This document shows positions 10,674-34,864 of a DNA stretch of 36,073 nucleotides, one piece after another. The notes beneath the pieces were generated by a model, which was not told the origin of the DNA, made no database searches, and saw only the letters and a program-made list of their open reading frames with translations. Source of the DNA: a virus; IMG/VR virus record IMGVR_UViG_3300048126_000068, positions 1 to 36,073 of that record. One strand, written 5' to 3'. Position 1 is the stretch's first letter. The number at the start of each line of letters is the position of its first letter. Made by a program: the position numbers and the translations under genes.

Positions 10674-11084
10674 ATGTCAAATGTTGATAATCCTCCTCGC
10701 CGAAAGCGTGGAAGACCGCGTAAAAGTGACGTTACAACAGTAAAAAAAGGTAATCGCAACGCTGTTGGTCGCCCGAAGGGTGACGCTGCCGTCATTAACG
10801 AATACAAAGCACGTATGTTGGCGTCTCCAAAGTCCCGAAAGGTGCTTGACACTATCTTTGATGCAGCTCTTGACCACGATCATAAGAATCAAGCAGCAGC
10901 GTGGAAGCTTGTAATGGATCGTATACTGCCCGTTGCAGCATTTGAGAAGGATATTGTTAAGGATGGTGGCCGTAACGCCATTCAGATTAACATTAGTGGT
11001 GTTGGTGCAGTAGATGTGAGTGAACCTACAACAGTTGCTACGTCTAGCGACATTATAGAGGGTGAAGTAGTCGATGAATCTTAA
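10674..11084 (+). CDS. terminase small subunit, putative
   Basis: A 136-residue protein whose N-terminus is rich in basic AT-hook-like motifs (PRRKRGRPRK and VGRPKG), followed by a helical core (INEYKARMLASPKSRKVLDTIFDAALDHDHKNQAAAWKLVMDRILPVAAFEK) and an acidic tail. Small terminases bind phage DNA and hand it to the large subunit. The first position of the late operon, close upstream of the large terminase, supports this. AGAGG lies six bases before the ATG. Its 3' end overlaps the M15 peptidase gene by 11 bases. The call rests on position and DNA-binding character, not on a diagnostic motif. Confidence 0.7.
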   Translation: MSNVDNPPRRKRGRPRKSDVTTVKKGNRNAVGRPKGDAAVINEYKARMLASPKSRKVLDTIFDAALDHDHKNQAAAWKLVMDRILPVAAFEKDIVKDGGRNAIQINISGVGAVDVSEPTTVATSSDIIEGEVVDES

Positions 11085-11424
11085 GCATTTTGATCCTTCA
11101 GAGTTTAACTGTCAAGTCACTGGTACCAATAACATGGAGCGAGACTTTTTAGAAAAGATGGACGAGTTAAGAGCAGCGTGTGGGTTTCCTTTTACGATCA
11201 CTAGCGGGTATCGACACCCGACTGAGCATCCGATTGAGGCTAAGAAAGACGTACCCGGCACCCATGCTCAGGGAATCGCGGCGGATATAAAAATAACAAA
11301 CGCCGTGTTTCGCCTTAAGATTGTAACGGAGGCAATTCGTTTAGGATTTACTGGAATAGGTATTGCTTCTGACTTTGTACACGTAGATACACGCGGAACA
11401 ACACCCGTTATGTGGACGTATTAG
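11074..11424 (+). CDS. M15 zinc peptidase (endolysin-type L,D/D,D-carboxy- or endopeptidase)
   Basis: A 116-residue single-domain peptidase of the M15A type that cuts peptidoglycan stem peptides. Zinc ligands are visible as H64 and D71 in GTHAQGIAAD and H103 in FVHVDTRG, with TSGYRHPTEHP upstream as in VanY/Ply-like enzymes. There is no signal peptide, so release would need a holin; a 3TM holin gene is present at 22994. Its location between the two terminase genes is unusual for a lysis gene. It overlaps both neighbours by about a dozen bases. It might instead be a virion-associated entry enzyme, but soluble endolysin is the simpler reading. Confidence 0.9.
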   Translation: MNLKHFDPSEFNCQVTGTNNMERDFLEKMDELRAACGFPFTITSGYRHPTEHPIEAKKDVPGTHAQGIAADIKITNAVFRLKIVTEAIRLGFTGIGIASDFVHVDTRGTTPVMWTY

Positions 11425-18056: not shown

Positions 18057-21000
18057 ATGTCGAACTATTCTAAGACAACAGACTTTGAAGCTAAAGACTC
18101 GTTACCTACAGGCGACTCAGGAAAGATTATCCGTGGCGCTGAATTTGAAACCGAGTTTGATGCAATCTCTACAGCTATTGCAACCAAAGCTGACACAGCA
18201 GGACCTACGTTTACCGGAACCCTGACCTTTGAAACTATTTCTGACGGAACCATTGGTGTTACTGCCTTTGTCGATGAAGACAACATGGCGTCTGATAGTG
18301 CAACTCTGGTTCCCACACAGCAGTCCGTAAAAGCGTACGTTGATTCACAAGTCACTGCACAAGACCTAGATTTCCAAGCTGACTCAGGTGGTGCGTTAAG
18401 CATTGATTTAGACTCTGAGGCGCTAACACTTACAGGCGGTACTGGTATTGACACGTCTGGCTCAGGTAATTCCGTTACCTTTGATATTGACTCTACTGTT
18501 ACAACCTTAACAGGCACACAAACACTTACTAACAAGACGCTTACCACTCCTACTATCTCTGGCAACCTAACTACAGACGGAACTATTGATGGCCGTGACG
18601 TTGCTACAGATGGTGCTAAGTTAGATGGTATCGAAGCAGGTGCTACTGCTGATCAAACAGCCTCAGAGATTCGTACACTGGTTGAATCAGCCACAGACTC
18701 TAACGTTTTCACTGACGCAGATCACAGCAAGCTAGATGGCATTGAGGCTAGTGCTACAGCAGATCAAACAGATGCTGAGATCAGAGCCGCAGTAGAAGCC
18801 GCTACGGACTCCAATGTATTTACCGATGCTGACCACAGCAAACTGGACGGTATCGAAGCCTCAGCAGACGTAACAGATACAGCTAACGTTACAGCCGCTG
18901 GCGCCTTGATGGACTCAGAGGTTACTAACCTTGCACAGGTTAAGGCGTTCGACTCTTCTGATTACGCTACAGCCGCGCAAGGCACTACTGCTGACTCTGC
19001 ATTACAGAACGTAGTAGAAGACACTACGCCACAACTGGGTGGTGATCTTGCGTCTAATGGCAATGACATTCTATTTGCCGACAACGACAAGGCTATCTTC
19101 GGTGCTGGCTCTGACCTACAGATTTATCATCATTCAGGTGGTAACAGTATAATTGCTGAAACTGGAACTGGTGACCTTTTTGTACAAGCTACAAATATTC
19201 AGTTAGAAGATGCAAGCGGCAATAATATGATTGTTGCAAATAGTGGTGGTGCTGTAAATTTATATCATAATACTGGAGAAAAACTAGCCACAACCTCCAC
19301 AGGCATCGACGTAACGGGGAGTGTTGTTAGCGACGGCTTGACTCTTGATAATAACGGTTCGGTTATTTTTAACGCCCCGCAAGCAACAGATACAGTTCTT
19401 ATCGGCACAAATGATAACGACCTTGTTCTACGCACTGATGATGGCGATATCATTCTCAAAACAAATGAAAATAAACAGCAATTAAAAGTAAGCAACAACG
19501 GCGACATTAGCTTCTACGAAGACACTGGCACGACTGCGAAGTTGTTCTGGGATGCTTCTGCGGAAGCGTTGGGTATTGGTACTAGTTCGCCTAGCGATAA
19601 GCTAGAGCTTTTTACCACTGACACAGACTCTGGGATTAATCTTGTAGCTAATAACGGCAACAATCAACTTTCACATAGTCCTAAATTAAAATTCAATGGT
19701 GAGTATCAAAGCAACGGGCCGTTTATTCAGGGTTTAAACACAGGGGCGGTAGGTTACAAAGCTCTAGTATTTAACACAGTGCGAACAGACAATGATTATA
19801 CTACATTGCCAGCAGAAGCCATGCGTATCGGTTCTAGCGGTAAAGTAAGTATTGGAACTACGGCGGCTTCGGGTCTTTTAAACGTCTATGATTCTGGAAC
19901 AGACAATCGGTTATATTTGCAACATTCTGGTACAGGCACTACTGCCAGTGATGGGCTTCTTGTCGCTTCTATTTTAAGCAATGGGTATCTTTGGAACTAC
20001 GAATCGGGTTCGCTTCTTTTTGCAACTAACAACACAGAACGCATGCAGATCGACTCAGCAGGTAATGTTGGTATTGGTAGCAGCACAGCCAACCACTTTT
20101 CAACAGCAGGCACTACGAATGTTCTAGGCGTTAAAAGCACAAGCGGAGGTTTAATTTCAATTGCCGCTACTGGGACTAACTTTTCTGGCATAGATTTAGG
20201 CACAGACAGTATCCGAAGAGGTGGCGTATATTCTTTAAATGGTTCTAATTTAGGTTTTTATACTAACGCCACAAACTCTGGTACAGCACTAGCAGAACGC
20301 ATGCGTATCGACTCTAGCGGTCAGGTTGGTATTGGTGTTAGCAGTCCGTCAGCTCTATTGCATGTATCTGCATCTCCGGAAGTTGTTACTAGGCTTACAC
20401 GTTCGGCTGGCTCTAACGCTTTAGTTTTGGTTCAAGATCCTACAACTACACTGCCTCCTTATATTGGAAGTTATGGCAATGCTATGGCTTTTGGTCGTTA
20501 TGGTGGCGGTGAGTCTATGCGTATCGACTCTAGCGGGAATGTTGGTATTGGGACTGGTTCGCCTAGTGCGCCTCTGCACGTTGATGCCGCAGGTATGGGA
20601 GATATTTATTCAGGTTTAATCCAAAATTCAACCACAGACACAGACCATTACAATGTTGTTAGATTTATGCAAGGAGCATCAGGTTCAGCTACTGGATATA
20701 TAGGAACTGGTGGTTCTGCAACAAGCAATGTTGCCTTTAGAAATAATTTTGTAGTTGGTACACAAACTGCTAATTCTTTTGTATTGACTACTAATGATAC
20801 AGAACGCATGCGCATTGATGCTAGCGGTAATGTCCTTATCGGGATGACTAACGATACTCCCGGTTTAGGAGATACAGATACTGGAGCTTCTTTCAGAGCA
20901 GATGGTGCTTCGTTTGTTTCAAGAACTTTGTCAGACACTTCTGGTTCAACTTTCTATGTCAACCGCAATACTAATGATGGAAATTTAATTCAGTTCCAAA

Positions 21001-22106
21001 AAGACGGCACCACAGTCGGTAGTATTGGTACTTTATCCTCAAAAATATATGTTGGCTCGGGCGACACATCTTTATTCTTTGACTCTTTAAGAGATGCGTT
21101 GGTTCCGCACGATGCTTCTACAAACGCGGCAAGAGGCTCGGCCATTGACTTAGGAAGAGATGTTGTAAAGTTCAAAGACCTTTACCTGTCAGGCAACATT
21201 ACAATGGGGTCTAGCGCCCAAATTAACGCATCCAATGCCTTTTACCTTGACAGTGACATAATTCACTTTAGACGAAATAACGAAACAGAAAGCGCAAGAA
21301 TAGATAGCTCTGGCAACTTGCTGGTTGGTAAGTCGTCATCAAGTTTTTCAACAGCAGGAATAGAAGCACGTTCAGGCGGTACATTATGGGCTACTGCTGA
21401 CGGAACAAATGCGGCGTCTTTTAATAGGAAAACATCTGACGGAGCAATTGCATACTTCAGCAAAGACGGCACCACAGTCGGTAGTATTGGTACATATGTA
21501 AGTTTGCCGTTTATTGGTAAGTCCGATGTAAACTTGTTGTTTGACCCTGCTGGCCCTCACATGATACCAAGAGGAACTAATGGCGGTGCTAGAGATGCCG
21601 CTATAAATCTTGGTTCATCGTCTAACCGCTTCAAAGACATTCACCTGTCAGGCGTTATTTATGGTGTACAACAAACTCTTACTCGTGACAGTGCTGCACC
21701 TTTAGAGCTTAATAGAACAACTAACGATGGTGAATTAGTCTATTTTAAGCAAGCAGGCATTGTTAGAGGCTCTATTTCCATCAGCGGCTCTGCCACTTCT
21801 TATAACACTAGTTCTGACTACCGTTTGAAAGAAAACGTAATAGCAATGTCAGGTGCTACTGAAAGGCTTAAGCAGTTAGCACCTAAGCGATTCAACTTTA
21901 TTGCTGATGCCGATACAACTGTCGATGGCTTTTTAGCACACGAAGTTGCAGATGTTGTGCCTGAAGCAATTACAGGCGCTAAGGATGCTGTAGATGATGA
22001 CGGCAATGCAGTGTACCAAGGCATTGACCAATCCAAACTTGTGCCGCTACTTGTGGCAACAATCCAAGAACTTGAGGCACGTATTGCCGCACTTGAATCT
22101 AACTAA
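18057..22106 (+). CDS. tail fibre with C-terminal S74 intramolecular chaperone
   Basis: A 1349-residue fibre. The N-terminal part (YSKTTDFEAKDSLPTGDSGKIIRGAEFETEFDAI) is the usual virion-anchoring segment of marine phage fibres. Next come repeats of the type DADHSKLDGIEASATADQTDAEIR (about residues 190-290) and then a long shaft with several copies of (E)RMRIDSSGNVGIGTxSP, as in trimeric beta-helical spikes. The last 97 residues form a peptidase S74 domain with the Ser-Lys dyad S1253/K1258 in SDYRLKEN, which helps trimerise the fibre and then cuts itself off. A closing coiled coil (LVPLLVATIQELEARIAALE) ends it. The fibre recognises the host receptor. TAGGA precedes the ATG. Confidence 0.93.
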   Translation: MSNYSKTTDFEAKDSLPTGDSGKIIRGAEFETEFDAISTAIATKADTAGPTFTGTLTFETISDGTIGVTAFVDEDNMASDSATLVPTQQSVKAYVDSQVTAQDLDFQADSGGALSIDLDSEALTLTGGTGIDTSGSGNSVTFDIDSTVTTLTGTQTLTNKTLTTPTISGNLTTDGTIDGRDVATDGAKLDGIEAGATADQTASEIRTLVESATDSNVFTDADHSKLDGIEASATADQTDAEIRAAVEAATDSNVFTDADHSKLDGIEASADVTDTANVTAAGALMDSEVTNLAQVKAFDSSDYATAAQGTTADSALQNVVEDTTPQLGGDLASNGNDILFADNDKAIFGAGSDLQIYHHSGGNSIIAETGTGDLFVQATNIQLEDASGNNMIVANSGGAVNLYHNTGEKLATTSTGIDVTGSVVSDGLTLDNNGSVIFNAPQATDTVLIGTNDNDLVLRTDDGDIILKTNENKQQLKVSNNGDISFYEDTGTTAKLFWDASAEALGIGTSSPSDKLELFTTDTDSGINLVANNGNNQLSHSPKLKFNGEYQSNGPFIQGLNTGAVGYKALVFNTVRTDNDYTTLPAEAMRIGSSGKVSIGTTAASGLLNVYDSGTDNRLYLQHSGTGTTASDGLLVASILSNGYLWNYESGSLLFATNNTERMQIDSAGNVGIGSSTANHFSTAGTTNVLGVKSTSGGLISIAATGTNFSGIDLGTDSIRRGGVYSLNGSNLGFYTNATNSGTALAERMRIDSSGQVGIGVSSPSALLHVSASPEVVTRLTRSAGSNALVLVQDPTTTLPPYIGSYGNAMAFGRYGGGESMRIDSSGNVGIGTGSPSAPLHVDAAGMGDIYSGLIQNSTTDTDHYNVVRFMQGASGSATGYIGTGGSATSNVAFRNNFVVGTQTANSFVLTTNDTERMRIDASGNVLIGMTNDTPGLGDTDTGASFRADGASFVSRTLSDTSGSTFYVNRNTNDGNLIQFQKDGTTVGSIGTLSSKIYVGSGDTSLFFDSLRDALVPHDASTNAARGSAIDLGRDVVKFKDLYLSGNITMGSSAQINASNAFYLDSDIIHFRRNNETESARIDSSGNLLVGKSSSSFSTAGIEARSGGTLWATADGTNAASFNRKTSDGAIAYFSKDGTTVGSIGTYVSLPFIGKSDVNLLFDPAGPHMIPRGTNGGARDAAINLGSSSNRFKDIHLSGVIYGVQQTLTRDSAAPLELNRTTNDGELVYFKQAGIVRGSISISGSATSYNTSSDYRLKENVIAMSGATERLKQLAPKRFNFIADADTTVDGFLAHEVADVVPEAITGAKDAVDDDGNAVYQGIDQSKLVPLLVATIQELEARIAALESN

Positions 22107-22799: not shown

Positions 22800-22997
22800 A
22801 TGTCAGATCTAGAGCAGGCATTAAGTCGGTTAGAAGCTCATGAGCGTGAGTGTAGTATTCGCTATGAAATGATTCAGATGCAACTGGATGCACACAATCA
22901 ACGCTTTGACAAACTAGAGAAGATGATGACAGGCGGCTTTGCCTCTATTGCTATCATCGTGACTATGGCTATTGCTATCTTGGAGTTTGCTAGATGA
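22800..22997 (+). CDS. XhlA-like membrane protein
   Basis: Sixty-five residues: an N-terminal coiled coil (DLEQALSRLEAHERECSIRYEMIQMQLDAHNQRFDKLEKMM) and a C-terminal transmembrane segment (GGFASIAIIVTMAIAILEFA). This is the layout of XhlA-type holin partners, which assist membrane lesion formation. It overlaps the 3TM holin gene by four bases (ATGA), and AAGGAA lies five to six bases before its start. The family call is from topology. Confidence 0.68.
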   Translation: MSDLEQALSRLEAHERECSIRYEMIQMQLDAHNQRFDKLEKMMTGGFASIAIIVTMAIAILEFAR

Positions 22998-23392
22998 TTG
23001 AGTCGCTCATAGGGCCTGTAACAGGGCTTCTGGACAAGTTTGTACAGGACAAGGACCAGAAGGCTAGGTTAGCTCATGAAGTCGCTACAATGGCTCAGAG
23101 ACACGCTCAGGAGCTTGCTAAGTCACAACTAGAGGTTAACAAGGTAGAAGCAGCACACAAGTCCTTGTTTGTCTCTGGATGGAGACCTGCTGTTGGCTGG
23201 TGTTGCGTACTAGGTATGATGGGCAACTTTATGGTCATACCGTTTACCAACTTTGTTTTAGCTCTGTTGGCTATTGAAGTTACTATACCACTCATTGACC
23301 TAGAGACTATGATGCCTGTATTAATGGGTATGCTTGGTCTTGGTGCTATGCGTTCTTATGAAAAAACCAAGGGCGTGTCGAGGGAAAAGTAA
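22994..23392 (+). CDS. holin of the 3TM type
   Basis: A 132-residue holin of the type known from gene transfer agents and marine phages. A helical N-terminus with DKDQKARLAHEV and EVNKVEAAHKSLFVSGWRPAVGWCC leads into the first membrane segment; two more hydrophobic stretches follow (FMVIPFTNFVLALLAIEVTI and MMPVLMGMLGLGAMRSYEKTKGV). The FVxGWRPxxGW and LGxGxxRxYEKxKGV signatures are characteristic. It would open the inner membrane at lysis and release the M15 endolysin encoded at 11074. Confidence 0.9.
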   Translation: MIESLIGPVTGLLDKFVQDKDQKARLAHEVATMAQRHAQELAKSQLEVNKVEAAHKSLFVSGWRPAVGWCCVLGMMGNFMVIPFTNFVLALLAIEVTIPLIDLETMMPVLMGMLGLGAMRSYEKTKGVSREK

Positions 23393-26300
23393 ATGGCATA
23401 TTACATAGGCACACAAGAGTTTGCAACCATTGGTGAAGCTACTGATTTTATTCGTAGGAATCCTGACGTAGTAGAAGAAGGTTTACGAATTACGTCTGAG
23501 CCTGTTGGCAACGAAGGTATGTTGACTGGCGGTGTTAAAGGCGAGCCTGTAAAACAAGCTCCCATTGTTACGCCTGCTCCCGAGCCTGCTCCTGCCTCCG
23601 CTCCAGAACCTGAAACAGAAATGACGTTTACGTTTGTTGAAGGTAGAGAGCGTGGTGGTGCGTCACAAAACTACTTGTATGGACAAGAAGGTGAAGTACA
23701 ACAGTTAACAGTTAGTGAGCTACGTGATTACTTTGAAAGCGATAAGGTAAATAGACTTCCTGAAGTATTTGGTACGTTTGATAACTACCTTGCTTACATG
23801 ACTGAGCGTGAACAATTAATTCAGTCTGGTGACTACGATACAGGCAGTTGGTCAGAGGCTGACGCTGGGTTTAGCGAAGATCAAGAAATGATTCTTGAGG
23901 GTGACGCTGACCTTACTATTGACCCTAGTGATCCCGGTCAAAACTTAGAAAACCTACGTAGACAGCAAACAAGCACACAACAAGGCGCTTACAACAACTG
24001 GATTAACTCTGACGCCAACCAAGCACTGCTACAGAAATACGGTGTTAACCCTGTTGTATACAGTAACTCCGGCGACAAGTTTGCATGGAATGGTTCTGCG
24101 TATGTAAAGGTTGTAGACGAAGACCACGCTGGTCTTGCTGACTTTGTAAAGATGGGGATTACAACTGCTATTGGCATTATGTCAGGCGGTGCTTTGGCTC
24201 CAGCTTTAGGTGGTGTTGGCTCTGCTGTTGTTAGCAATGCAATAACGCAAGCTATTACTACTGGCTCTATTGATCCTGACCAACTACTTCAGACTGCGGC
24301 TACTGCTGGTTTAGGCCAAGCCGTAAGTCAAATTATTGGCCCTCAAATTGAAAGTGCTTTGGGCGGCATTGATCTTTCAGAAATAACAGGCATTGAAGAG
24401 GTAGACAATGTTCTAAACGCAATGGGTCAAACGGCTATTCGCCAAGCAGTATTTGATGGCGAGTTAGACATGGATCAGATTGTTTCTTCTGGTTTGTTTG
24501 CTGGAGCTATGGAGCTTGCTGACTTTATCTTAGAGCCGCTTACTCAAAATGCCTCTCAAGCAACAATTGAAGAGCAAAACAGAAGAGCGTTAGAGCTTGT
24601 AAATGCTGTTGGCGAAGATGCGGCAGGAGAAGTAATTGCTCGAATGAGTGATTCCATTAACACTGCTATTGCTGAACAGCAGAATGCGGCAATCGCTAAT
24701 CAACTAAGAGATTTGTCAGGCAACCTTCAGTCTATTTATGAGCAGGCTTATGCGGTATCACCACAACCCAGCGGCCCTTCTGTTGAAGACTTTATGGCTA
24801 ACTCTGTTGATGACGCAGACTCTGAGCTTGCAGACACTACGGCTGACTTAACAGAAGCAGATCAAGATTTTTTGGATGTTGAGCCATTTCAAGAGTTTGA
24901 GCCTAGTTTTCAAGATATAGACAACCCATTTGAAGGCGACGAGCTAATTAATGGCGTTTACTATAACGATGCTGGATTCCCTGTAGGCGTTAGCCCAGAT
25001 GCTACACCTGAGCAAATTCTTGAGCAGTTTGTTAATGACAAGAACGCATGGACTACAGCCACTGGCGTATCTGCTCATGGCTTGCCTGAAGATGCGCTAG
25101 CTATTTTAGTAGGAGGAGGTGATGTATTTACTACAGCCGAAGGCACTTTCCAAAACCTCGAAAGCCTTAGTGACCTTTTAGTAGAAAATGGTTTAGTTCT
25201 AGCAATGGATTCTAACGGCGGATATATATTAATTTCTGGTACAGAGTCTACTACGGGCTTCCACTCAAGTATTGACCAAGATGCTTTAATGGACCTTGAG
25301 TTTGTTGGCAATCAACAATTTATACCGCCACCCACTTCTTCAGAAAGCAATCCTCTTTTAGACCCAACAGATACAAGTGAGGTTTCCGAAGATATTCGAG
25401 ACATCTTGATTGATGTTCAAGAGGCTCCAGACACCCCTCTTAATTTAGAAGTGGAAGTAGATCCGTTTGAGTATGAAGAAGATCCAATAGAAACGCCTGA
25501 GCCGCCACCAGAGCCAGAACCTGTAGATCCTGTAGATCCAATTACTACAGATGAACAACAAACGTCCGGCGAAACTGGCACACCGCCTACAACACCTACT
25601 GACGTTCCGGTTACTGAAACACTGTTTCCTGAGTATTTTCCTGCTCCAGCACCTGCTCCAGCACCTGCTCCAGCACCTGCTCCAGCACCTGCTCCAGCAC
25701 CTGCTCCAGCACCTGCACCAGCTCCTGCACCAGCTCCTGCACCAGCTCCTGCACCAGCACCTGCGCCAGCACCTGCTCCAGCACCTGCTCCAGCACCGGT
25801 TCAAGGGCCACAAGGAGATCCGGGCCAAGACGGAACAGACGGCGTAGATGGTGTAGACGGCGTAGATGGTGTAGACGGTGTAGATGGTGTAGACGGTGTA
25901 GATGGTGTAGACGGTGTAGATGGCGTAGACGGACAACAAGGGGAAAGAGGAGAACAAGGAGAACAAGGTGAAAGGGGTGAACAAGGTGAAAGAGGCGAAC
26001 CCGGAAGAGATGCTGACCCAGAGGTAATACGTGGCATTGTAGAAGGCGTTTTAGAAAATACACCTTTTGCCACACCTGAAGAGGTTGCTAATGCTGTAGC
26101 TGAAGCGGGCTATGCAACACCAGAAGATATTGGCACTGCTCTTGCGCAAGCCGGATTTGCCACCCCGGAAGATATTACTACCGCACTAACAAATGCTGGA
26201 TTTACTACACCGGAAGATGTTGCTACTGCTTTAGCCAACGCAGGATATGTAACACCTGAACAGCTAGGTAGTGCTTTGGCGGCGTCAGGTTTTGCTACGC

Positions 26301-27355
26301 CAGACGATGTTGTTAATGCAATTTCAAGCGCAGGTTTTACGACTCCAGAAGATGTTGCTACTGCTTTATCTAATGCGGGATATGTAACGCCTGAACAATT
26401 AGGCAGTGCTTTAGCGGCATCAGGTTTTGCTACCCCAACAGACATTGTAACTGCTTTATCAAATTCCGGATTTACAACTCCAGAAGACGTTGCTACCGCC
26501 CTTTCTAATGCCGGTTATGTAACACCAGAGCAACTGGGAAGTGCATTAGCTTCGGCTGGCTTTGCTACTCCAACAGACATTGTAACTGCCTTATCAAATG
26601 CTGGATTTACTACTCCCGAGGATGTAGCAACCGCTTTGTCTAATGCTGGTTATGTAACGCCTGAGCAGTTAGGAAGCGCGTTAGCATCAGCAGGATTTGC
26701 TACACCAGAAGATATTACCACTGCTGTAACAAACGCTGGGTTTGCAACACCAGAAGACATTGATGCCGCGTTAAGTGGTGCAGGTTTTGCAACGGCAGAA
26801 GATGTTGCGGCAGGACAAACAGCGGCACAAGAAGAGCGACAAGATTTACAGCAAGCTGTTCTTGATGTTCAAGGGAATATTGATGACCTTGATGATGCTA
26901 CTCGCGAGCAGTTTGAAACCTTTGGTGGCACCGTTACGGATCTTTTCTCTGACGTAAATGTTGATATTGAAGCGTTACAGACTGGTCAACTTAGCCAAGC
27001 ACAAGCACAACAAGCGTTTGAAGAAAGTGTTGCTAGTCAATTTACTGGCTTAATTTCTGATGTAGCAGGATTAGGTACTCAAATTGGTGGAATTGGTCAG
27101 GGCTTAGGAGAGTTAGGACAAGGCATAGGAATGCTTGGAGCAGGTTTAGGTTTAGGTTTAGGTGGTCTTGGACAACAACAAGAACAAATTATTGCTCAAC
27201 TTTCTAAACCAGACGTTATACAGTTTGATCCGTTCCTTCAAGGTCTTAGTCCGTTTCAAATGTTAACACCTATAGCACTTGCTCCACAAAAACAAATAAA
27301 TGCTGAAGAAGAACTTGATAAATTTTTTGGTAGACAGTCAGGAATGCTTGTATGA
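23393..27355 (+). CDS. 1320-aa mosaic virion protein: Pro-Ala rod, collagen-like segment, 15-residue repeats
   Basis: No family recognised for the whole protein. In order: a short N-terminal element (YYIGTQEFATIGEATDFIRRNPDVVEEGL), an acidic region, and a Gly/Ala-rich hydrophobic segment (about 250-320) able to enter membranes. More acidic sequence follows, then a (PA)26P rod at 750-802, 23 Gly-X-Y triplets at 805-873, sixteen 15-residue repeats at 892-1131, and a helical stretch. It ends in a glycine-rich hydrophobic segment (GIGQGLGELGQGIGMLGAGLGLGLGGLG). It lies between the holin and the tail tubular genes, so it is probably part of the tail or ejected material. A trimeric fibre-like part is suggested by the collagen-like region. 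The stop overlaps the next start (ATGA). Confidence 0.8.
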   Translation: MAYYIGTQEFATIGEATDFIRRNPDVVEEGLRITSEPVGNEGMLTGGVKGEPVKQAPIVTPAPEPAPASAPEPETEMTFTFVEGRERGGASQNYLYGQEGEVQQLTVSELRDYFESDKVNRLPEVFGTFDNYLAYMTEREQLIQSGDYDTGSWSEADAGFSEDQEMILEGDADLTIDPSDPGQNLENLRRQQTSTQQGAYNNWINSDANQALLQKYGVNPVVYSNSGDKFAWNGSAYVKVVDEDHAGLADFVKMGITTAIGIMSGGALAPALGGVGSAVVSNAITQAITTGSIDPDQLLQTAATAGLGQAVSQIIGPQIESALGGIDLSEITGIEEVDNVLNAMGQTAIRQAVFDGELDMDQIVSSGLFAGAMELADFILEPLTQNASQATIEEQNRRALELVNAVGEDAAGEVIARMSDSINTAIAEQQNAAIANQLRDLSGNLQSIYEQAYAVSPQPSGPSVEDFMANSVDDADSELADTTADLTEADQDFLDVEPFQEFEPSFQDIDNPFEGDELINGVYYNDAGFPVGVSPDATPEQILEQFVNDKNAWTTATGVSAHGLPEDALAILVGGGDVFTTAEGTFQNLESLSDLLVENGLVLAMDSNGGYILISGTESTTGFHSSIDQDALMDLEFVGNQQFIPPPTSSESNPLLDPTDTSEVSEDIRDILIDVQEAPDTPLNLEVEVDPFEYEEDPIETPEPPPEPEPVDPVDPITTDEQQTSGETGTPPTTPTDVPVTETLFPEYFPAPAPAPAPAPAPAPAPAPAPAPAPAPAPAPAPAPAPAPAPAPAPAPAPAPAPVQGPQGDPGQDGTDGVDGVDGVDGVDGVDGVDGVDGVDGVDGVDGQQGERGEQGEQGERGEQGERGEPGRDADPEVIRGIVEGVLENTPFATPEEVANAVAEAGYATPEDIGTALAQAGFATPEDITTALTNAGFTTPEDVATALANAGYVTPEQLGSALAASGFATPDDVVNAISSAGFTTPEDVATALSNAGYVTPEQLGSALAASGFATPTDIVTALSNSGFTTPEDVATALSNAGYVTPEQLGSALASAGFATPTDIVTALSNAGFTTPEDVATALSNAGYVTPEQLGSALASAGFATPEDITTAVTNAGFATPEDIDAALSGAGFATAEDVAAGQTAAQEERQDLQQAVLDVQGNIDDLDDATREQFETFGGTVTDLFSDVNVDIEALQTGQLSQAQAQQAFEESVASQFTGLISDVAGLGTQIGGIGQGLGELGQGIGMLGAGLGLGLGGLGQQQEQIIAQLSKPDVIQFDPFLQGLSPFQMLTPIALAPQKQINAEEELDKFFGRQSGMLV
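25640..25798 (+). repeat. proline-alanine repeat tract, 13 x 12 bp
   Basis: Thirteen consecutive 12-bp units (CCTGCTCCAGCA and close variants with GCA or GCG) plus a final CCG encode 53 residues of strict Pro-Ala alternation. This should form a stiff extended rod. The variants are grouped (units 7-9 share one form), a sign of unit-by-unit duplication. The antisense frames stay open here only because of the repeat. Confidence 0.95.
25805..26011 (+). repeat. collagen-like Gly-X-Y segment, 23 triplets
   Basis: Twenty-three uninterrupted Gly-X-Y triplets: GPQ GDP GQD GTD, ten GVD, then GQQ GER GEQ GEQ GER GEQ GER GEP GRD. The GVD block alternates GAT and GAC codons with an 18-bp period, so it grew by duplicating a two-triplet unit. 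Collagen-like segments in phage proteins usually form trimeric triple helices. Confidence 0.93.
26066..26785 (+). repeat. sixteen exact-length 15-residue (45-bp) repeats with a higher-order triad
   Basis: Sixteen consecutive repeats of consensus F-A/T-T-P-E-D-x-x-x-A-L-x-x-A-G with no indel, and a decayed seventeenth (26786 on). From repeat 4 to 15 they form four 45-residue triads: FTTPEDVATALxNAG, YVTPEQLGSALAxxG, FATPxDIVTALSNxG (the last position more variable). Each repeat looks like a TP-capped helix followed by a Gly turn. The triads differ at many synonymous sites, so the period is old or under selection. Confidence 0.95.
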
Positions 27356-27999
27356 CATATCTTAACCTTATGAACAATGTACTACGCAGACTTCGTGAAG
27401 AAGAAACATCATCTGTTACTAGTACTACCTACGTTAAAATGGTAGGTGACTTTATTAACGATGCTAAGACATTGGTTGGTCAGGCAGCTGATTGGTCTGC
27501 GTTGCGTGAGACTATAACAATATCTACTGCTGCGTCAGACAACACATACTCGCTGACAGGCGGTGGTGACAACATTAAAGTTATGTCGATGCTTAATGAT
27601 ACTCAAAACTGTTTTATAGAGTATCAAACTAAAGACTGGTTTAACGAGCAGTTGTACATTAGCAGCGCAGCAGAAGGTACGCCACGGTACTTTACCTATA
27701 ACGGTTTAGATTCTAACGGTGACACACAAATCCTTATAGGCCCAACACCAGACGGTGTGTACAGTATACGTGTAGACACTGTTAAGCGACAAGCAGACTT
27801 GAGTGCTAACACTGATGAGTTGCTTATTCCTGCTATGCCAGTGATACACCTTGCTGTAGCGTTGTTGGCTCGTGAGCGTGGTGAGACAGGCGGTACGTCA
27901 ACTGCTGAGTACTTTACTATTGCTAACCAGTACTTGTCTGACGCTATTGCTATTGACGCAGCAAAGCACCCCGAAGAGATGGTATTTAGGACTATCTGA
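27352..27999 (+). CDS. tail tubular protein A (T7 gp11-like adaptor)
   Basis: A 215-residue head-tail adaptor. The N-terminal MTYLNLMNNVLRRLREEETSSVTSTTYVKMVGDFINDAKTLVGQAADWSALR helix pair and the RETITISTAASDNTYSLTG strand segment are the T7 gp11 pattern. The protein forms the ring between portal and nozzle. It is followed one base later by the gp12-like gene, the T7 order. The start overlaps the mosaic protein's stop by four bases. Confidence 0.85.
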   Translation: MTYLNLMNNVLRRLREEETSSVTSTTYVKMVGDFINDAKTLVGQAADWSALRETITISTAASDNTYSLTGGGDNIKVMSMLNDTQNCFIEYQTKDWFNEQLYISSAAEGTPRYFTYNGLDSNGDTQILIGPTPDGVYSIRVDTVKRQADLSANTDELLIPAMPVIHLAVALLARERGETGGTSTAEYFTIANQYLSDAIAIDAAKHPEEMVFRTI

Positions 28000-28000
28000 T

Positions 28001-29524
28001 ATGGCTCAAGAACTTAAGAGTATTAATCTTGTAGCTCCGGCGTTCAAAGGTGTTAACACCGAAGATTCGCCGTTGGCTCAAGACCCGTCGTTTGCAGAGA
28101 TTGCAGACAACGCCGTGATTGATAAACGTGGTCGTATTGCTGCACGTAAGGGCCACACTGTTGTAACAACAAACAAGACTGTCCTTGGTACTGACTCTTT
28201 GTACAGCATCAAAGAATATAGGGACGACGCAGGAAACACCAAGATATTCTCTGTTGGCAACAACAAGATTATGAGTGGTACAACTACACTAGCAGACGAG
28301 ACTCCCGGTAGTTATACAATCAGTGCTAACGACTGGAAGATTGTTAATTTTAATGACCACTTGTTTTTCTTTCAACGTGGTTACGAGCCATTGATTTACT
28401 CAAACCATGTAGGCTCTGTAGAAGCACTGTCAAGTCATCCTCATGCTACAGGCGTTGCTAGTACTATGTACGGCCACGAGGTGTTAGCAGCGTACGGTCG
28501 TTTGTGGACCGCAGACTTTAGTACTAACAAGTCTACTATTTACTGGTCTGATTTGTTAGACGGAGCAGCATGGTCGGGAGGCTCTAGCGGCAACATTGAT
28601 GTATCTAAAGTCTGGCCCGATGGTTATGACGAGATTGTAGCTTTAGCGGCTCACAACGGGCTGTTAATTATTTTTGGTAAGCACAGCATTATTGTGTACG
28701 ACGGCGCTACTTCTCCTGCTTCTATGACGTTGTCAGACACCGTAGCAGGTATTGGTTGCGTCAACAGGGACACTGTGCAGTACACCGGAACAGACGTGTT
28801 GTTTTTGTCACATACGGGTCTTAAGAGCTTTGGCAGAACAATACAAGAAAAGTCAATGCCTATCAGTAGTTTATCTGGTAACATTACAAAAGATATTATT
28901 GCTGCGCTACAGAACGAGACACAATTTTTTAGATCGGTATACAGTCCAGAAGAAGGATTCTACCTGTTAACCTTTACAGGTCAGGATGTAACGTACTGTT
29001 TTGACGTACGAGGTACATTAGAGAATGGATCATACCGTGTTACTCGATGGCCGTCAACTAAGTTCACATCGTACACACGATTAGAAGACGGTACGCTACA
29101 CGTAGGTACAACTAACGGTATCAGTACGTATACAGGTTACAGCGATAACGGTAGTGGTTACAGATTTAAATACTACAGCCCAAGCTTGACATTTGGTGAT
29201 AGTGCTAGAATTAAAATATTAAAGAAGCTAAAGCCTACACTGGTTGGTGCAAACAACTCAGTTGTATTTATGAAGTGGGCTTATGATTTTGATACAACAT
29301 ACGCAACAACAGAGTTTACGGTAGGTACGCAGATAACTGGGTTCTACGGTGAAAGTGAGTATACAACAGTAGAATTTACAGGTGGTCAGCTAACAAACCA
29401 GCGTAGCCTCAACACCACCGGATATGGAACAAGTGTGCAGGTAGGTCTAGAGTCAGAGATAAACGGCTCACCACTGTCACTTCAGGAGATTAACGTAATG
29501 GCTTTGATAGGTAAACTGCTATGA
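28001..29524 (+). CDS. tail tubular protein B (T7 gp12-like nozzle)
   Basis: A 507-residue beta-rich nozzle protein. It opens LVAPAFKGVNTEDSPLAQDPSFAEIADNAVIDKRGRIAARKGH, typical of short-tailed phage nozzle proteins, and continues with blade-like repeats (IYWSDLLDG, LLIIFGKHSIIVYDGA, GLKSFGRTIQEKSMPIS). I start it at the ATG at 28001, which has TTAGGA about nine bases before it. An in-frame upstream extension into the gp11-like gene has no homologous look. The last four bases overlap the next start (ATGA). Confidence 0.87.
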   Translation: MAQELKSINLVAPAFKGVNTEDSPLAQDPSFAEIADNAVIDKRGRIAARKGHTVVTTNKTVLGTDSLYSIKEYRDDAGNTKIFSVGNNKIMSGTTTLADETPGSYTISANDWKIVNFNDHLFFFQRGYEPLIYSNHVGSVEALSSHPHATGVASTMYGHEVLAAYGRLWTADFSTNKSTIYWSDLLDGAAWSGGSSGNIDVSKVWPDGYDEIVALAAHNGLLIIFGKHSIIVYDGATSPASMTLSDTVAGIGCVNRDTVQYTGTDVLFLSHTGLKSFGRTIQEKSMPISSLSGNITKDIIAALQNETQFFRSVYSPEEGFYLLTFTGQDVTYCFDVRGTLENGSYRVTRWPSTKFTSYTRLEDGTLHVGTTNGISTYTGYSDNGSGYRFKYYSPSLTFGDSARIKILKKLKPTLVGANNSVVFMKWAYDFDTTYATTEFTVGTQITGFYGESEYTTVEFTGGQLTNQRSLNTTGYGTSVQVGLESEINGSPLSLQEINVMALIGKLL

Positions 29525-30771
29525 ATGAAGATCTGGATATTGGATTGCCTCCAGAAATGATGGGTATATTAAGTGCCGGAATAGGTGGTTCCAATCCTAT
29601 TATGGCAGCTACTAATGCTCTAAATACTGGTGGTGGGTTTTTTAGTAACGTTTTTGGTAGCCTTGGTGATATAGGCTCTGCCCTATCGCCAGCTATTCCT
29701 GCCATTGCAGGTACATTGTTAACAAGTGAGGCTTATGATCGACTTAGTGATGTTGGTCGTGAGGCTGAAGCAGCAGCAATGGGGCTTGCAGAGCGTGGTC
29801 TTGCTGGGTCACAGTTTAAACCGTTTACTGTAACGACTCCTACAGGTGCAATGTTTACTACACGTATGGGTGGTCAACAACCTGCACCAACGCCAATGGG
29901 TGCAATGGCCTCGCCATCGGGTCAACTTATTGGTGGTGCAAGTCCATTGGCAGGAATGACTCCAGAGCAAATACAAGCGGCTATGACAGGTGGCGGTCTT
30001 GCTGGTGGTATTACAGGCGGATTACCAACACCACAACCTGCGGCACAACCCGCGGTAATGCCAACGCCAACAGGTGGCGGTCTTGAAGTAGGTATGACAC
30101 TGTCGCCTCAAGAACAAGCTATGCAACAACAGTTGTTTGGCGGTGCAGGTGGTTTCTTTGGTCAAGCAGCACAGCCTACTCAAGCTCGTGAGCAAGCCAT
30201 ATTCGATCGTATGAGGGCGGCACAACGTCCTGAAGAGGAACGTCAACGTCTAGCACTAGAAGAGCGTCTGGCAGCACAAGGTCGTCTTGGTGTTAGCTCT
30301 GCTGCCTACGGTGGCGCTACTCCTGAAATGCTGGCTATGGCTACAGCGCAAGAAGAAGCCCGTAACAGAGCCATGCTAGGCGCTATGCAACAGGCTCAGG
30401 CAGAGCAAGCACAGCAAGCAGGACTAGGACAACAGTTCCTTGGTGCAAGTTATCTACCACAAACACAGTTGTTAGCAGCAGCACAACCAGCACAGCGCAT
30501 GGCAGAGCTACAACAACAAGCTCAGTTGTACGGTACAGGACTCTTTGGCGAGACTGCGTTGTCTGGTATTGAGTCTAGACTGCTGGCAGAGCAAGCACGA
30601 GCTAATTTGTTAGGCGGTATAGGCTCTAACGTACTTGCTGGTTTGTTTACGCCACAGGTTACTAAGTCTGGTACTGTTATTGATCCGGGTGGTTTTGGAG
30701 ATATAGGTGGTATTATTGAGGGCGTTGGTAGCGGTCTTGGTGGATTGTTCGAAACTATATTTGGAGGTTAA
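29521..30771 (+). CDS. internal virion-like protein, Gly/Ala/Gln-rich
   Basis: A 416-residue protein rich in Gly, Ala, Gln, Met and Pro. The N-terminus has hydrophobic glycine-rich stretches (FSNVFGSLGDIGSALSPAIPAIAGTLL). The middle is a low-complexity linker (PTPQPAAQPAVMPTPTGGG), then a long amphipathic helical region (QAMQQQLFGG... MLGAMQQAQAEQAQQAGLGQQFLGASYL), and it ends in another glycine-rich hydrophobic segment. Its place after the nozzle gene is where T7 carries gp14, the first ejection protein, so a membrane-inserting ejection role is plausible. No family motif is visible. Confidence 0.65.
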   Translation: MNEDLDIGLPPEMMGILSAGIGGSNPIMAATNALNTGGGFFSNVFGSLGDIGSALSPAIPAIAGTLLTSEAYDRLSDVGREAEAAAMGLAERGLAGSQFKPFTVTTPTGAMFTTRMGGQQPAPTPMGAMASPSGQLIGGASPLAGMTPEQIQAAMTGGGLAGGITGGLPTPQPAAQPAVMPTPTGGGLEVGMTLSPQEQAMQQQLFGGAGGFFGQAAQPTQAREQAIFDRMRAAQRPEEERQRLALEERLAAQGRLGVSSAAYGGATPEMLAMATAQEEARNRAMLGAMQQAQAEQAQQAGLGQQFLGASYLPQTQLLAAAQPAQRMAELQQQAQLYGTGLFGETALSGIESRLLAEQARANLLGGIGSNVLAGLFTPQVTKSGTVIDPGGFGDIGGIIEGVGSGLGGLFETIFGG

Positions 30772-30773
30772 TT

Positions 30774-31970
30774 GTGGCTAAGTTTTCACAAGCATTTTTA
30801 CAAGGTCTGTTACAGCCTTCTTATCAAGAGGGTTTGTTTACTGCTGCGCGTGGTATTGGTCAAGCTCCGGGATTGCGTAGACAGCAACAACAACAACAAG
30901 AAGAAATGCAAAAGCTTCGTGGTATGGGTGCTGTTGAGCGTGCTGAGTTTATGGCAGGCAGGGCAAAAACACCAGAAGAATTAATGCAGGCAGAAGCAGC
31001 AAAAACCACTGCTGTTAAGCAAGGTTCTCTTACAAGTCTTCGTGGTCTTGAAGCAGCACGACAAGCCGCAGGAACCACCGAAGAAAAACTTCGTATAGAA
31101 AACATAATGGCTCGTGTTGCTGTACAGGCTGGAGTAGATCCTTCTACAATTACAGGACGAACGCAAGCAGAACAAGACGATGAAATATCTAGAGAGTTAG
31201 CACAAGGGCGTTTAAAAGATCAACAACGTCAAGAGCAAGAGGCCGCTATAAGTCAAGCATACTACAATGTTCCTGAAGGATCTTTAGAGAAGTTTGAAGA
31301 AAACGCGGTCAAGTCTGGTTTTGGTAATGTTATTGATGAGTTAAAAGAAGATAAAGCAAGAGATGATTTATTTCAACTAGAGTTTAAAAACGCCAAAACT
31401 AAAGCAGAAGAAAACGCATCAATGAAAAAAGCACCGCTGCCTGTTACTTCATTAAGAGACAGAATCACTAATGCTAATATCGACCCTCAACTGAGAGAGC
31501 AGTTTTTATCAGAGCTTGATGACATTAAACAACCAGACTTTAATGCTAATGAGACTTGGAATCCCGGAGAAAGAAAGCAAGCAATGGATTCATTAGAGTC
31601 TCTTAACAGAGCTGTTAGAGCAGAAGTATCTAGAGAGGTTACTAGAAAAAATGCTATACGTGCTGACATTCGTACGCTTGAAAAGCAAAAAACTAAACCG
31701 CCCACTAAGGCTCAAATTGATGAGCAAATGACGCAGGCGCAAGAAAACGTAGTTACTACAGGAGTTTTTGGAAGGACTGTTGAAGACGATCCTGAAGCGG
31801 TTAGAAAAGAAGCTACACGTTTAGCCAGAATTACTAGAGATAATCAGATTAACGACCTACTAGAACAGCGTCGTGCTGAATTAGGCGGAGAAGCTATAGC
31901 ACAACCTGATGAAACTGAAGAGGAAGGTACAGAACTTACCACCAAGGCTGATGAAATAGTAGGACTTTAA
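30774..31970 (+). CDS. internal virion-like protein, coiled coil
   Basis: A 398-residue, charged, mostly helical protein starting at GTG with GGAGG six bases upstream. After FSQAFLQGLLQPSYQEGLFTAARGIG comes a Gln run (QQQQQQEEMQ) and long coiled-coil segments. The C-terminus is acidic (DETEEEGTELTTKADEIVGL). Position and size correspond to the second ejection protein (T7 gp15 position). I see no enzymatic motif. Function is inferred from order and helical character only. Confidence 0.65.
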   Translation: MAKFSQAFLQGLLQPSYQEGLFTAARGIGQAPGLRRQQQQQQEEMQKLRGMGAVERAEFMAGRAKTPEELMQAEAAKTTAVKQGSLTSLRGLEAARQAAGTTEEKLRIENIMARVAVQAGVDPSTITGRTQAEQDDEISRELAQGRLKDQQRQEQEAAISQAYYNVPEGSLEKFEENAVKSGFGNVIDELKEDKARDDLFQLEFKNAKTKAEENASMKKAPLPVTSLRDRITNANIDPQLREQFLSELDDIKQPDFNANETWNPGERKQAMDSLESLNRAVRAEVSREVTRKNAIRADIRTLEKQKTKPPTKAQIDEQMTQAQENVVTTGVFGRTVEDDPEAVRKEATRLARITRDNQINDLLEQRRAELGGEAIAQPDETEEEGTELTTKADEIVGL

Positions 31971-31972
31971 TA

Positions 31973-34864
31973 ATGTCTGATAGGTTAAATAAATACGCTG
32001 CTTGGCTTGTTAAGAACGAAGACAAGAAAGGCACTGAAGAGTTTCAAACAGTCGCTGATGCTTATCGTGAGTTACGTGTACAACCAGAGCGTGAAGCGTT
32101 AGAAGAAGAGTTTGCACAAGCAGAACAAGAAAGAGCAGAAGCGGCTTATCAACTAGAAGCGGCTGAAGACACTGTGCTTGAGAACTTAGCGGAGGGTATT
32201 CAAGAAATGTCTTCTGCTGGTGTAGGTCTTGCTGTAGATACTATAGATGCTTTTACTTCTATTGGACGTGTTCCTTATGAAGCAATAACAGGTAAGGATG
32301 TTCGTACTCTTCGTGAAGCTATGTCAGGGACAGCCCTTGATCTAGATCGCCCTTTTATGGAAGAACGTACAGCGGCTATGTTTGGTCCTAGGCTGGCCGC
32401 TACTATTGCTACAGCAGGCGGTGCTGGTGCTGTTCAAGTTGCTCGCGATCCTGCAAAAATTTCGTCTGCTTTGAAAGACATTGCTGGTTTAGGAATGACT
32501 AAAACTCCTGAATCCGTTGCCGCATCTGCTTTGGTATCAGCCGCTCAAGAATCTCAAACAATCGGTAAAGTAGCTGATGATATTCAAAAGATGACTGATG
32601 AGTATCGTCCACAAATAGAAGCAAGATCCGTTACTCCAGATGGTAGTGGAGGATCAGTAAAGCGTGTTGAAGGCGGTTGGGAGTATGGTGGTGTCCGCGC
32701 TACCGGTAACGCTAAAGAAGGTTATGATATTCCGGGTATTGGAAAAGTAGATAACAAAGCTGATATTAAACTAGCTATTGATGATCAGTTTACTGCCTTT
32801 CAAAAAGCTAGAGAGCAGATGCAGGTAGAGTACAACTTACGTAAGCAGTTACAGAAAACAGAAGACTTTTCTGAGTTGCGTGGCATGACAACAGCACCTA
32901 AGCGTATGACATTTACACTAGGAAGACAGGCTGAAAAAGACGTAGGATTAACAACTCAAGCTATTGACACTGCTGAAGATGCGTTGTACTACAAAGTTAG
33001 TCCTGAAATAGCAGGAGCTGCTACCATTGCTGCACAGGCGTCTGGCGTAAAAATGAACAGGGCTTATGATGAATACCTTCTTCCTGTTGTTCCTGTTATT
33101 CAACTATGGCGAACCAACAAAGAAGCTGCTAAAGCTATGTTGGACTATTCTCGTGGCTTGAAAGGGAACAATCGTTCTCAGTTTTTAAAAAGATTGTCTG
33201 ACTCTGGTGTTTCAAATCAAGAAATACGTGCGGTAAATAACTATCTTAATTTTAGAGGACAGCTTTTTAAAGAGCATCGTTTTAACATAGGTGAAGAAAC
33301 CTCAGTTTTAACTGACAGATTACACATACAAATGCAGCCTATCGAAGAGCTAGGTGAAAAGTCTGCATATGCTAAACGAGGAAGAAAAAATTACTTAGAA
33401 GTTCAACAGGATCAATCTAGACGTGCTTTGCGTAATAGACAAGTTGCTACTGATGAAATGATTGAGCAGTATCAAAATCCTTTTTTGACTGACTTTAAAT
33501 TGTTAAATCAAAATGATTTTTTAAATGAGATAACAAAGCGTATTGATGTAGGCTCTTTGGGTGTTAAAAGTCCTACAGGGCAAGAAGCGTTTCAAGCCGT
33601 GGCTCGACGTCTTGCTGAAGATCTTCCTGACAATGTTGCTGAAAGAGGGGCTAGAATTGTAGAAGATATGGTTATTGGTTCTCAACAACATGCCCCTGCT
33701 GTAGCTCAGTTAATATCTACTTTGTCTTATGGCGGAACACTAATGTCGTTGAAGTCTGCTGTGTTAAACCTTCACGATGTTTTTGTATCTCCTATGCTCA
33801 ATGGCGTTGCTGCCACTATTCGTGGAACTAAACGTGCTTTTGATCGTAAACAAAAAAGTTTTGTAGATCCTAAGTTAACAGGTATTAACAGACAAACACA
33901 AGGAGAGTTTGCTAATAAGTTAGTTGATGAAGTAGGAAGAATGTCTGATGATCCTTCTGCATTAAGAGAGGCAACTAGATTAGCGTCTAAAGGTCTTGAA
34001 AAAGGAATGAGGTACACTTTATTTAGTGGCTTGGATGGAATAGGTAAACGTGCCATTATGAATAGTGTTATTGAGAACGGTTATGATTTAGCCAAGAAAG
34101 GACAATTCAACGACAAATGGGGACGTTACTTTTCTGAAGCAGAAAGGTTTACTATCATCAACGCTTTCCGCAGACACGGTAGAAACTTAGAGGCCATGTC
34201 AGAAAAAGAGTTGAAGCTTATGTCTGAGCTTGCATATGCAGGACTGGGACAACAACAGCTTACTTCAGTAGCGGGAAGACCTTTGGCGTGGTCAACAAAT
34301 CCTGTAATACGTCCTCTGTATACCTTGATGGGTTTTGCTATTGTACAAAGATCTTTGTTACGTAAAAAAGTAATTGATGAGTTAAGAGACGGTAACGAAG
34401 GACAGGCAGCTAAGAATGCTGCTTTGTATATCGCTAGTGCTGGTGTTGGCTATGCTGTTCTTGACGAGGCTCGCGACTTTGTTTTCTCTGGAGGAGAAGA
34501 CGAGATAACAGGAGAAGAGTTGTTGTTTAAAGCGTTGGTAGATCAACCATTGTCTGTTATGACTTTAAACAAAGCACCAACATCGCAGTACCAGTACAAC
34601 AGATTCAAAGCTAACCCTTATGAGTGGGCTGTTACTTCTATTGCGCCTGCGGGTGGTTTGATTGAACAAGGAACAGCGGCAGGTATTGATTTAATAACAG
34701 CACCTATATCAGAAGACCCGGCAAAGAATGTTGAGAAGGCTTGGAAGCATATCATGCAGATACCTGCTTTAAACAACTCTATCGGCACCGCAATGGCGGT
34801 AATGGGTAGTCCTGTTGGTACAACAACTACTGTAGTAAGGGAAGAAGGGGCCGAAGCCCCGTAA
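31973..34864 (+). CDS. large internal virion protein (T7 gp16 position)
   Basis: A 963-residue protein, last in the late operon. It opens NKYAAWLVKNEDKKGTEEFQTVADAYRELR, a short domain I recall from other marine phage ejection proteins, followed by a helical acidic region and a predicted membrane-active stretch (LAATIATAGGAGAVQVA). The long remainder is helical with a hydrophobic patch near residues 815-832 (AALYIASAGVGYAVLDEA). T7 gp16 has a lytic transglycosylase at its N-terminus; I see no such motif here. The last codons (EEGAEAP) overlap the hairpin that ends the converging leftward operon. Confidence 0.75.
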   Translation: MSDRLNKYAAWLVKNEDKKGTEEFQTVADAYRELRVQPEREALEEEFAQAEQERAEAAYQLEAAEDTVLENLAEGIQEMSSAGVGLAVDTIDAFTSIGRVPYEAITGKDVRTLREAMSGTALDLDRPFMEERTAAMFGPRLAATIATAGGAGAVQVARDPAKISSALKDIAGLGMTKTPESVAASALVSAAQESQTIGKVADDIQKMTDEYRPQIEARSVTPDGSGGSVKRVEGGWEYGGVRATGNAKEGYDIPGIGKVDNKADIKLAIDDQFTAFQKAREQMQVEYNLRKQLQKTEDFSELRGMTTAPKRMTFTLGRQAEKDVGLTTQAIDTAEDALYYKVSPEIAGAATIAAQASGVKMNRAYDEYLLPVVPVIQLWRTNKEAAKAMLDYSRGLKGNNRSQFLKRLSDSGVSNQEIRAVNNYLNFRGQLFKEHRFNIGEETSVLTDRLHIQMQPIEELGEKSAYAKRGRKNYLEVQQDQSRRALRNRQVATDEMIEQYQNPFLTDFKLLNQNDFLNEITKRIDVGSLGVKSPTGQEAFQAVARRLAEDLPDNVAERGARIVEDMVIGSQQHAPAVAQLISTLSYGGTLMSLKSAVLNLHDVFVSPMLNGVAATIRGTKRAFDRKQKSFVDPKLTGINRQTQGEFANKLVDEVGRMSDDPSALREATRLASKGLEKGMRYTLFSGLDGIGKRAIMNSVIENGYDLAKKGQFNDKWGRYFSEAERFTIINAFRRHGRNLEAMSEKELKLMSELAYAGLGQQQLTSVAGRPLAWSTNPVIRPLYTLMGFAIVQRSLLRKKVIDELRDGNEGQAAKNAALYIASAGVGYAVLDEARDFVFSGGEDEITGEELLFKALVDQPLSVMTLNKAPTSQYQYNRFKANPYEWAVTSIAPAGGLIEQGTAAGIDLITAPISEDPAKNVEKAWKHIMQIPALNNSIGTAMAVMGSPVGTTTTVVREEGAEAP
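34847..34860 (-). terminator. UUCG-loop terminator ending the leftward operon
   Basis: Read on the minus strand, GGGGC-TTCG-GCCCC forms a five-pair GC stem with an ultrastable C(UUCG)G tetraloop, followed by TTCTTCCCTT. It lies 6-19 bases beyond the reductase stop. On the plus strand the same stem has a CGAA loop and no T-run, so it is expected to work mainly leftwards. It is also coding, forming the end of the 963-residue late protein. Confidence 0.75.

Follow-up and report, generated by a model that had tools for sequence, protein, structure and literature searches.

A modular candidate stalk protein encoded between the holin and tail adaptor genes of an uncultured podovirus lineage

The locus and its 1320-residue product

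The window analysed here is the whole 36,073-nucleotide stretch of a viral record (IMG/VR IMGVR_UViG_3300048126_000068). Its capsid, portal and tail-tube proteins are ~22-33% identical to those of pelagiphages, HMO-2011-type phages, cyanophages and others, and the cultured relatives of this phage are only distant. Between the holin and the tail adaptor lies an intact open reading frame, referred to below as the stalk gene after the role proposed for its product, the ATG of which stands immediately 3' of the holin stop (Table 1). Its product is strongly acidic, with 216 Asp/Glu against 35 Lys/Arg residues (pI 4.05). As a sequence-only reading had described, the 1320-residue protein harbors a Pro-Ala tract of 53 residues, 23 Gly-X-Y triplets, sixteen 15-residue repeats, to which a degenerate 17th can be added, and a glycine-rich tail; the order of these segments was found as claimed, and so was the place of the gene, flanked by the holin and the tail adaptor/tube, where T7 has no counterpart. 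The Pfam model Collagen (PF01391) matched the Gly-X-Y segment (E 2.4e-11; 43.7 bits, cut-off 27.2), and well-supported library matches of the whole protein were confined to this collagen stretch.

Table 1. Position of the stalk gene, its neighbours and the parts of its product in the window
Feature	Position	Strand	Remark
Holin (GTA_holin_3TM), directly upstream neighbour	22994..23392	+	
Whole stalk ORF, 1320 aa, 137 kDa, pI 4.05	23393..27355	+	ATG to TGA, intact
N-terminal region, residues 1-245	23393..24127	+	conserved family domain from about residue 78
N-terminal GMLTGG motif, residues 42-47	23516..23533	+	common to nearly all complete relatives
Ala/Gly/hydrophobic helical stretch, residues 246-400	24128..24592	+	low model confidence, best hydropathy 1.5
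Block replaced in near-identical relative L003	24510..24664	+	no DNA alignment; flanks 98% on both sides
Exchangeable cassette, residues 481-700	24833..25492	+	100% DNA identity in L003
(Pro-Ala)n tract, residues 750-802, 53 aa	25640..25798	+	12-bp tandem repeat x13.2
Collagen-like segment, residues 805-873, 23 Gly-X-Y triplets	25805..26011	+	9/18-bp DNA repeat
Fifteen-residue repeats, residues 892-1146, 16 canonical and a degenerate 17th	26066..26830	+	45-bp and 135-bp DNA periods
Glycine-rich heptad zipper (predicted), residues 1220-1254	27050..27154	+	a/d all hydrophobic in 29 aligned sequences
C-terminal tip FDPFLQGLSPF...GMLV, residues 1278-1320	27224..27352	+	one of at least 4 exchangeable tip types
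C-terminal GMLV motif	27341..27352	+	counterpart of N-terminal GMLTGG
Tail adaptor (SU10_adaptor), downstream neighbour	27352..27999	+	start overlaps stalk ORF stop

Further genes of the window belong to the surroundings of this locus. A separate tail fibre of 1349 aa with a C-terminal S74 chaperone domain is encoded at 18057-22106 and is also strongly diverged between close relatives, and a peptidase M15 endolysin candidate lies away from the stalk gene at 11074-11424. Three large ORFs (416, 398 and 963 aa) are found 3' of the tail tube at 29521-34864, which by analogy would be the expected place of T7-type ejection genes (gp14-16 analogues); searches of PHROG and Pfam gave no match for them. 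In many relatives the gene upstream of the stalk gene encodes a different three-helix-type membrane protein of ~114 aa (..NWENIHANNA..SWKDEWFTILFS..; for example at 5561 in L010, 5337 in L047, 5657 in L007 and 1842 in L113), which would seem to be an alternative holin at this position.

A family with conserved ends and an exchangeable middle

With the first 736 residues as query 55 viral loci were matched, and a profile of residues 78-305 (N-domain) found 226 relatives in viral contigs, the best 80 of which were studied. No N-domain relative was detected in genome_contigs at the sensitivity used, and on this ground a cellular origin or prophage was set aside. Credible matches were found neither in cultured phages nor, for the family, in the PDB, and PHROGs gave nothing better than E 0.05 for the domain of residues 78-305. 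Judged by sequence, the protein is a member of a family that is unnamed in the resources searched. A fibre domain of a known family was not found in the stalk protein, and the phage fibre terminal domains PF08400, PF06820 and PF03406 were absent by Pfam from the window protein and eight relatives. Two near-cut-off Pfam matches (a UBA-type and an HHH model), each on single 15-residue repeats, were attributed to chance, Jumonji-type and oxygenase PDB matches of the N-profile (E 0.2-0.9) to noise, and an HNH-like 5' extension in some relatives, inspected by eye, apparently to the overlapping holin 3' end in another frame.

The slot before the tail adaptor was surveyed in the best 80 of 555 adaptor relatives, a sample of close adaptor relatives. 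Upstream sequence was readable in 72 loci, and every one of them carried the stalk gene or its recognisable C-terminal end there: 58 were identified by the N-domain, 12 were cut contigs with the C-terminal part and a typical tip only, and the remaining two were complete genes with a diverged N-terminal part and a related tip. Since the slot was filled in 72 of 72 loci, the stalk gene seems to belong to the core genes of the lineage and its slot is apparently obligatory. Where enough flank was available, the gene order was fibre, DUF7936 or other small genes, holin, stalk gene, adaptor and tail tube.

Members of the family range from 543 to 1715 residues and have in common the N-domain, the hydrophobic stretch and the C-tip, together with a motif resembling GM[LF]T close to either end, while the middle of the protein differs between close relatives and may hold a rigid rod, a collagen helix, helical repeats or coiled coils. 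By simple patterns, which give undercounts, 36 of 82 members have a Pro-rich tract and 42 the glycine zipper; collagen and the 15-mer array were each detected in 26, and 20 members carry a second type of repeat, ~21 residues long. The rods recur in many members in a fixed order, Pro-rich, then collagen, then 15-mers. Members of 543-760 residues possess the N-domain, hydrophobic stretch and C-tip and none of the three rods, which argues that the core function is independent of the stalk, even if a stalk has been acquired in many phages. Beyond what a single sequence can offer, this comparison indicates that the rods are optional, shuffled modules and that the N-domain, the C-tip and the terminal motif are the conserved parts. 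In one subgroup (L037, L101, L102 and L103) a charged, KEEAAAEQADKDAE-like repeat of great length makes up the stalk; the frame of L102 stops early within it (1009 aa compared to 1591-1633), through an assembly error or a mutation.

Of 84 distinct complete members, nearly all have GM[LF], mostly followed by T, near the N-terminus; at the other end, all 72 slot ORFs have GM[LFM] within their last 30 residues. Counted by length decile in 69 proteins, the motif occurred 73 times in the first decile, 69 times in the last and 35 times across the eight between, counts which come from related sequences and hence do not represent independent events. The C-terminal copy lies 4 to 25 residues from the stop and its codons vary synonymously. 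Because of this variation the terminal motif is considered a feature of the protein, and the idea that it merely reflects a ribosome-binding site overlapping the gene end was set aside. None of the other genes checked in the window had a GM[LF]T-type motif at an end. It is a natural guess that the motif at both ends may act as a docking or prohead-targeting signal, and the matching ends are a specific candidate assembly signal.

Global alignments were made for 45 pairs whose adaptor proteins share at least 95% identity. Median identity was 0.99 for the adaptor, 0.98 for the tail tube and 0.62 for the stalk protein; for the tail fibre the only two pairs available gave 0.42 and 0.25. Compared to L003, the DNA of the window gene is 93-100% identical outside the rods, except for residues 361-450 (windows 46-80%), and the replaced block listed in Table 1 indicates internal recombination. 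In L008 the DNA is 95.6% identical over 23603-24508, yet the adaptor and tube genes reach merely 75.7%. Such sharp switch points are read as marks of segment exchange. The cassette of residues 481-700 is kept in some relatives, and unalignable alternatives stand in its place in L016, L017, L018 and L023. The Pro-Ala tract measures 53 aa in the window, 33 aa in L003 and 16 aa in L004, and the collagen segment has 23 triplets compared to 28-29 in L003 and L004 (28 in L003), lengths which derive from short-read contigs, may be distorted by assembly and are to be treated with caution.

Against close relatives dN/dS was 0.0-0.5 in nearly every block, and therefore most parts are still under purifying selection; the maxima of 0.53 and 0.77 belong to cassettes swapped for poorly alignable alternatives. 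Because the reading frame is kept through the tandem arrays in relatives and dN/dS is low in nearly every block, the arrays are not ascribed to chance. Reverse-transcriptase-driven diversification was rejected, as no RVT was found in the 36-kb record, which is possibly incomplete.

Predicted structure and comparison with known systems

All structure predictions were made for single chains. In the model of residues 1-696, confidence was reached for residues 1-40 and, largely, 78-245 alone. Foldseek gave nothing significant for the N-domain in the PDB (best E 0.67) or BFVD (best E 0.048), and the VIA-align rows for this model covered low-confidence helices at 330-458 only. The predicted fold is without known structural match in these searches, which is not evidence of a new fold.

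In the model of residues 881-1320 the 15-mers formed one 10-residue helix per 15-residue unit, with pLDDT averages of 75-88 for most blocks, and the array is predicted to be a helical solenoid. A designed helical-repeat protein was its best Foldseek match (E 1.9e-3; VIA Z <=6.7), and the predicted arrangement is a common one. By phmmer, the TPE[QD]V helices matched TAL-effector repeats (PDB 9jo8, 3ugm and 4osk; E 5e-16 to 2e-11). Both are helical solenoids, but the window protein has a 15-residue unit with one helix, whereas TAL effectors have a 34-residue unit with two, and the two align only with regular 4-residue gaps. A 33-35-residue two-helix repeat with a variable diresidue and a basic DNA-binding surface was not found in the array, which contains 30 Asp/Glu and no Lys or Arg in 255 residues. 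DNA binding is unlikely because of this lack of Lys/Arg, and the similarity to TAL-effector repeats was set aside as probable convergence.

Residues 1220-1254 comprise five heptads in which positions a and d are hydrophobic in 100% of cells in 29 aligned sequences (26 distinct), with the other phases at <=54%. Glycine takes about half of the remaining positions, and the model has pLDDT <50 there. This pattern points to an oligomerisation zipper or coiled coil rather than a membrane segment. The idea of two membrane-active ends put forward earlier is not supported: at the C-terminus the tail is a hydrophobic heptad stretch, and at the N-terminus the hydropathy is a weak 1.5. Residues 246-400 do have the Ala/Gly/hydrophobic composition of the membrane-active-looking segment that had been proposed, but their top 19-residue hydropathy is below usual transmembrane strength, and pLDDT is <50. 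An oligomer is what both the collagen helix and the heptad pattern, perfect across the 29 aligned sequences, would require, in line with the extended oligomer suggested in that reading. From standard rises per residue, we estimate that the predicted rods would measure about 16 nm (Pro-Ala) and about 20 nm (collagen).

A studied phage protein of related build is EPclA, a trimeric dumbbell of ~50 nm (PMC3368898). The window protein resembles the collagen-like prophage fibre proteins EPclA/EPclB in having collagen triplets beside a predicted coiled coil, domains at both ends and a putative stalk architecture, which for EPclA/EPclB was shown to be trimeric (PMC3368898). The window protein lacks PfN, PfC and Pf2, its N-domain is unrelated, and it adds a Pro-Ala tract and a predicted helical-repeat solenoid, with modules that are optional between close relatives. 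Among the PHROGs, phrog_1806 ('collagen like minor tail') and further tail fibre families that contain collagen matched about residues 793-889 and nothing outside the repeats, which is low-complexity similarity only.

Candidate roles of the stalk gene product

Tentatively, we favour a virion stalk, oligomeric and reshuffled by recombination, that is one of the core proteins of an uncultured marine podovirus lineage and probably serves host contact. The module order, the family, the slot, the heptad pattern, segment exchange and array-length changes were observed, while virion location, trimer state, a docking role of the ends and host contact are inferred. The gene would be one of the core late genes, and its product, probably part of the virion, would form an elongated oligomer, most likely a trimer, in which the C-terminal glycine-rich zipper and the collagen segment hold the chains together. 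A stalk of tens of nanometres, its length set by the tandem arrays, would be built from the Pro-Ala tract, the collagen helix and the helical-repeat solenoid. Docking to conserved partners would fall to the N-domain, the C-tip and the end motifs GM[LF]T/GMLV. What differs between phages, most plausibly host contact of the kind made by a side fibre or appendage, would reside in the stalk modules and the exchangeable cassette. The filled slot beside the tail genes, the collagen helix and heptad pattern, the exchangeable and optional modules, the low identity where adaptor and tube are nearly identical, the switch points, the array-length changes and the related build of EPclA argue for this stalk. 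Against it stand the short members without a stalk, the core function of which would be other or simpler, the lack of a known fibre domain, the separate S74-type fibre gene in the phage and the conservation of both ends; fibres are usually variable at their receptor-binding end.

Going further, though with greater reserve, one may see here an undescribed obligatory structural class of marine podoviruses in which unrelated modules are spliced in or lengthened between two fixed, motif-sharing ends, a length-adjustable appendage distinct from both the tail fibre and the T7-type ejection proteins.

The gene is present in hundreds of viral contigs and outside the collagen stretch matches no family in the libraries searched. 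As its slot was never found empty in the loci surveyed, the product is probably important to the way in which these viruses meet or enter their hosts, and as such undescribed. Should it prove to be a virion appendage, relatives with near-identical tail genes but differing stalk and fibre are natural swaps, which would probe the phage parts that decide host contact and the effect of stalk length.

The main rival, which we regard as rather unlikely, is an additional ejection (internal virion) protein, whose GM[LF]T ends would target the prohead, whose hydrophobic N-terminal half would enter the membrane and whose zipper and rods would bridge the periplasm. Podovirus ejection proteins reportedly exceed all other virion proteins in variability, are modular and diverge below 10% identity (PMC8954989), and variability therefore does not discriminate between stalk and ejection protein. 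Like gp14/gp15/gp16 (PMC8954989), the stalk protein is hypervariable and modular, has hydrophobic segments and is encoded near tail genes; its gene occupies a different slot, before adaptor and tail tube. No gp14/gp15/gp16-type homology was found by PHROG/Pfam, an absence that shows little at such divergence. The Ala/Gly/hydrophobic stretch is present in all members, short ones included, but reaches a hydropathy of 1.5 only, and the terminal motifs look like a sorting signal. A periplasm-spanning device should be near-constant in length, whereas the members run from 543 to 1715 residues, and the expected ejection place at 29521-34864 is taken by three other large ORFs, though these are without family match. 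Collagen helices are known from external fibres, and we know of no counterpart of the collagen, Pro-Ala and zipper parts in T7-type ejection proteins.

Improbable, in our view, is that the rods are neutral tandem-DNA expansions in a permissive linker and only a core of ~550 residues matters. All three rods are DNA tandem arrays, their lengths differ between otherwise identical copies, to which short-read assembly may contribute, and short members do without them; however, the frame is kept, dN/dS of the 15-mer block is 0.03-0.37 where computable, the rods keep their order in many members, and the zipper and tip beyond them are conserved.

Least probable is a non-virion late protein of the lysis cassette or of assembly, e.g. 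a membrane organiser or assembly jig, which would suit the hydrophobic stretch and the ATG directly after the holin stop, but the stalk gene stop overlaps the adaptor gene start, the endolysin candidate lies elsewhere, and lysis proteins do not typically contain collagen or rods.
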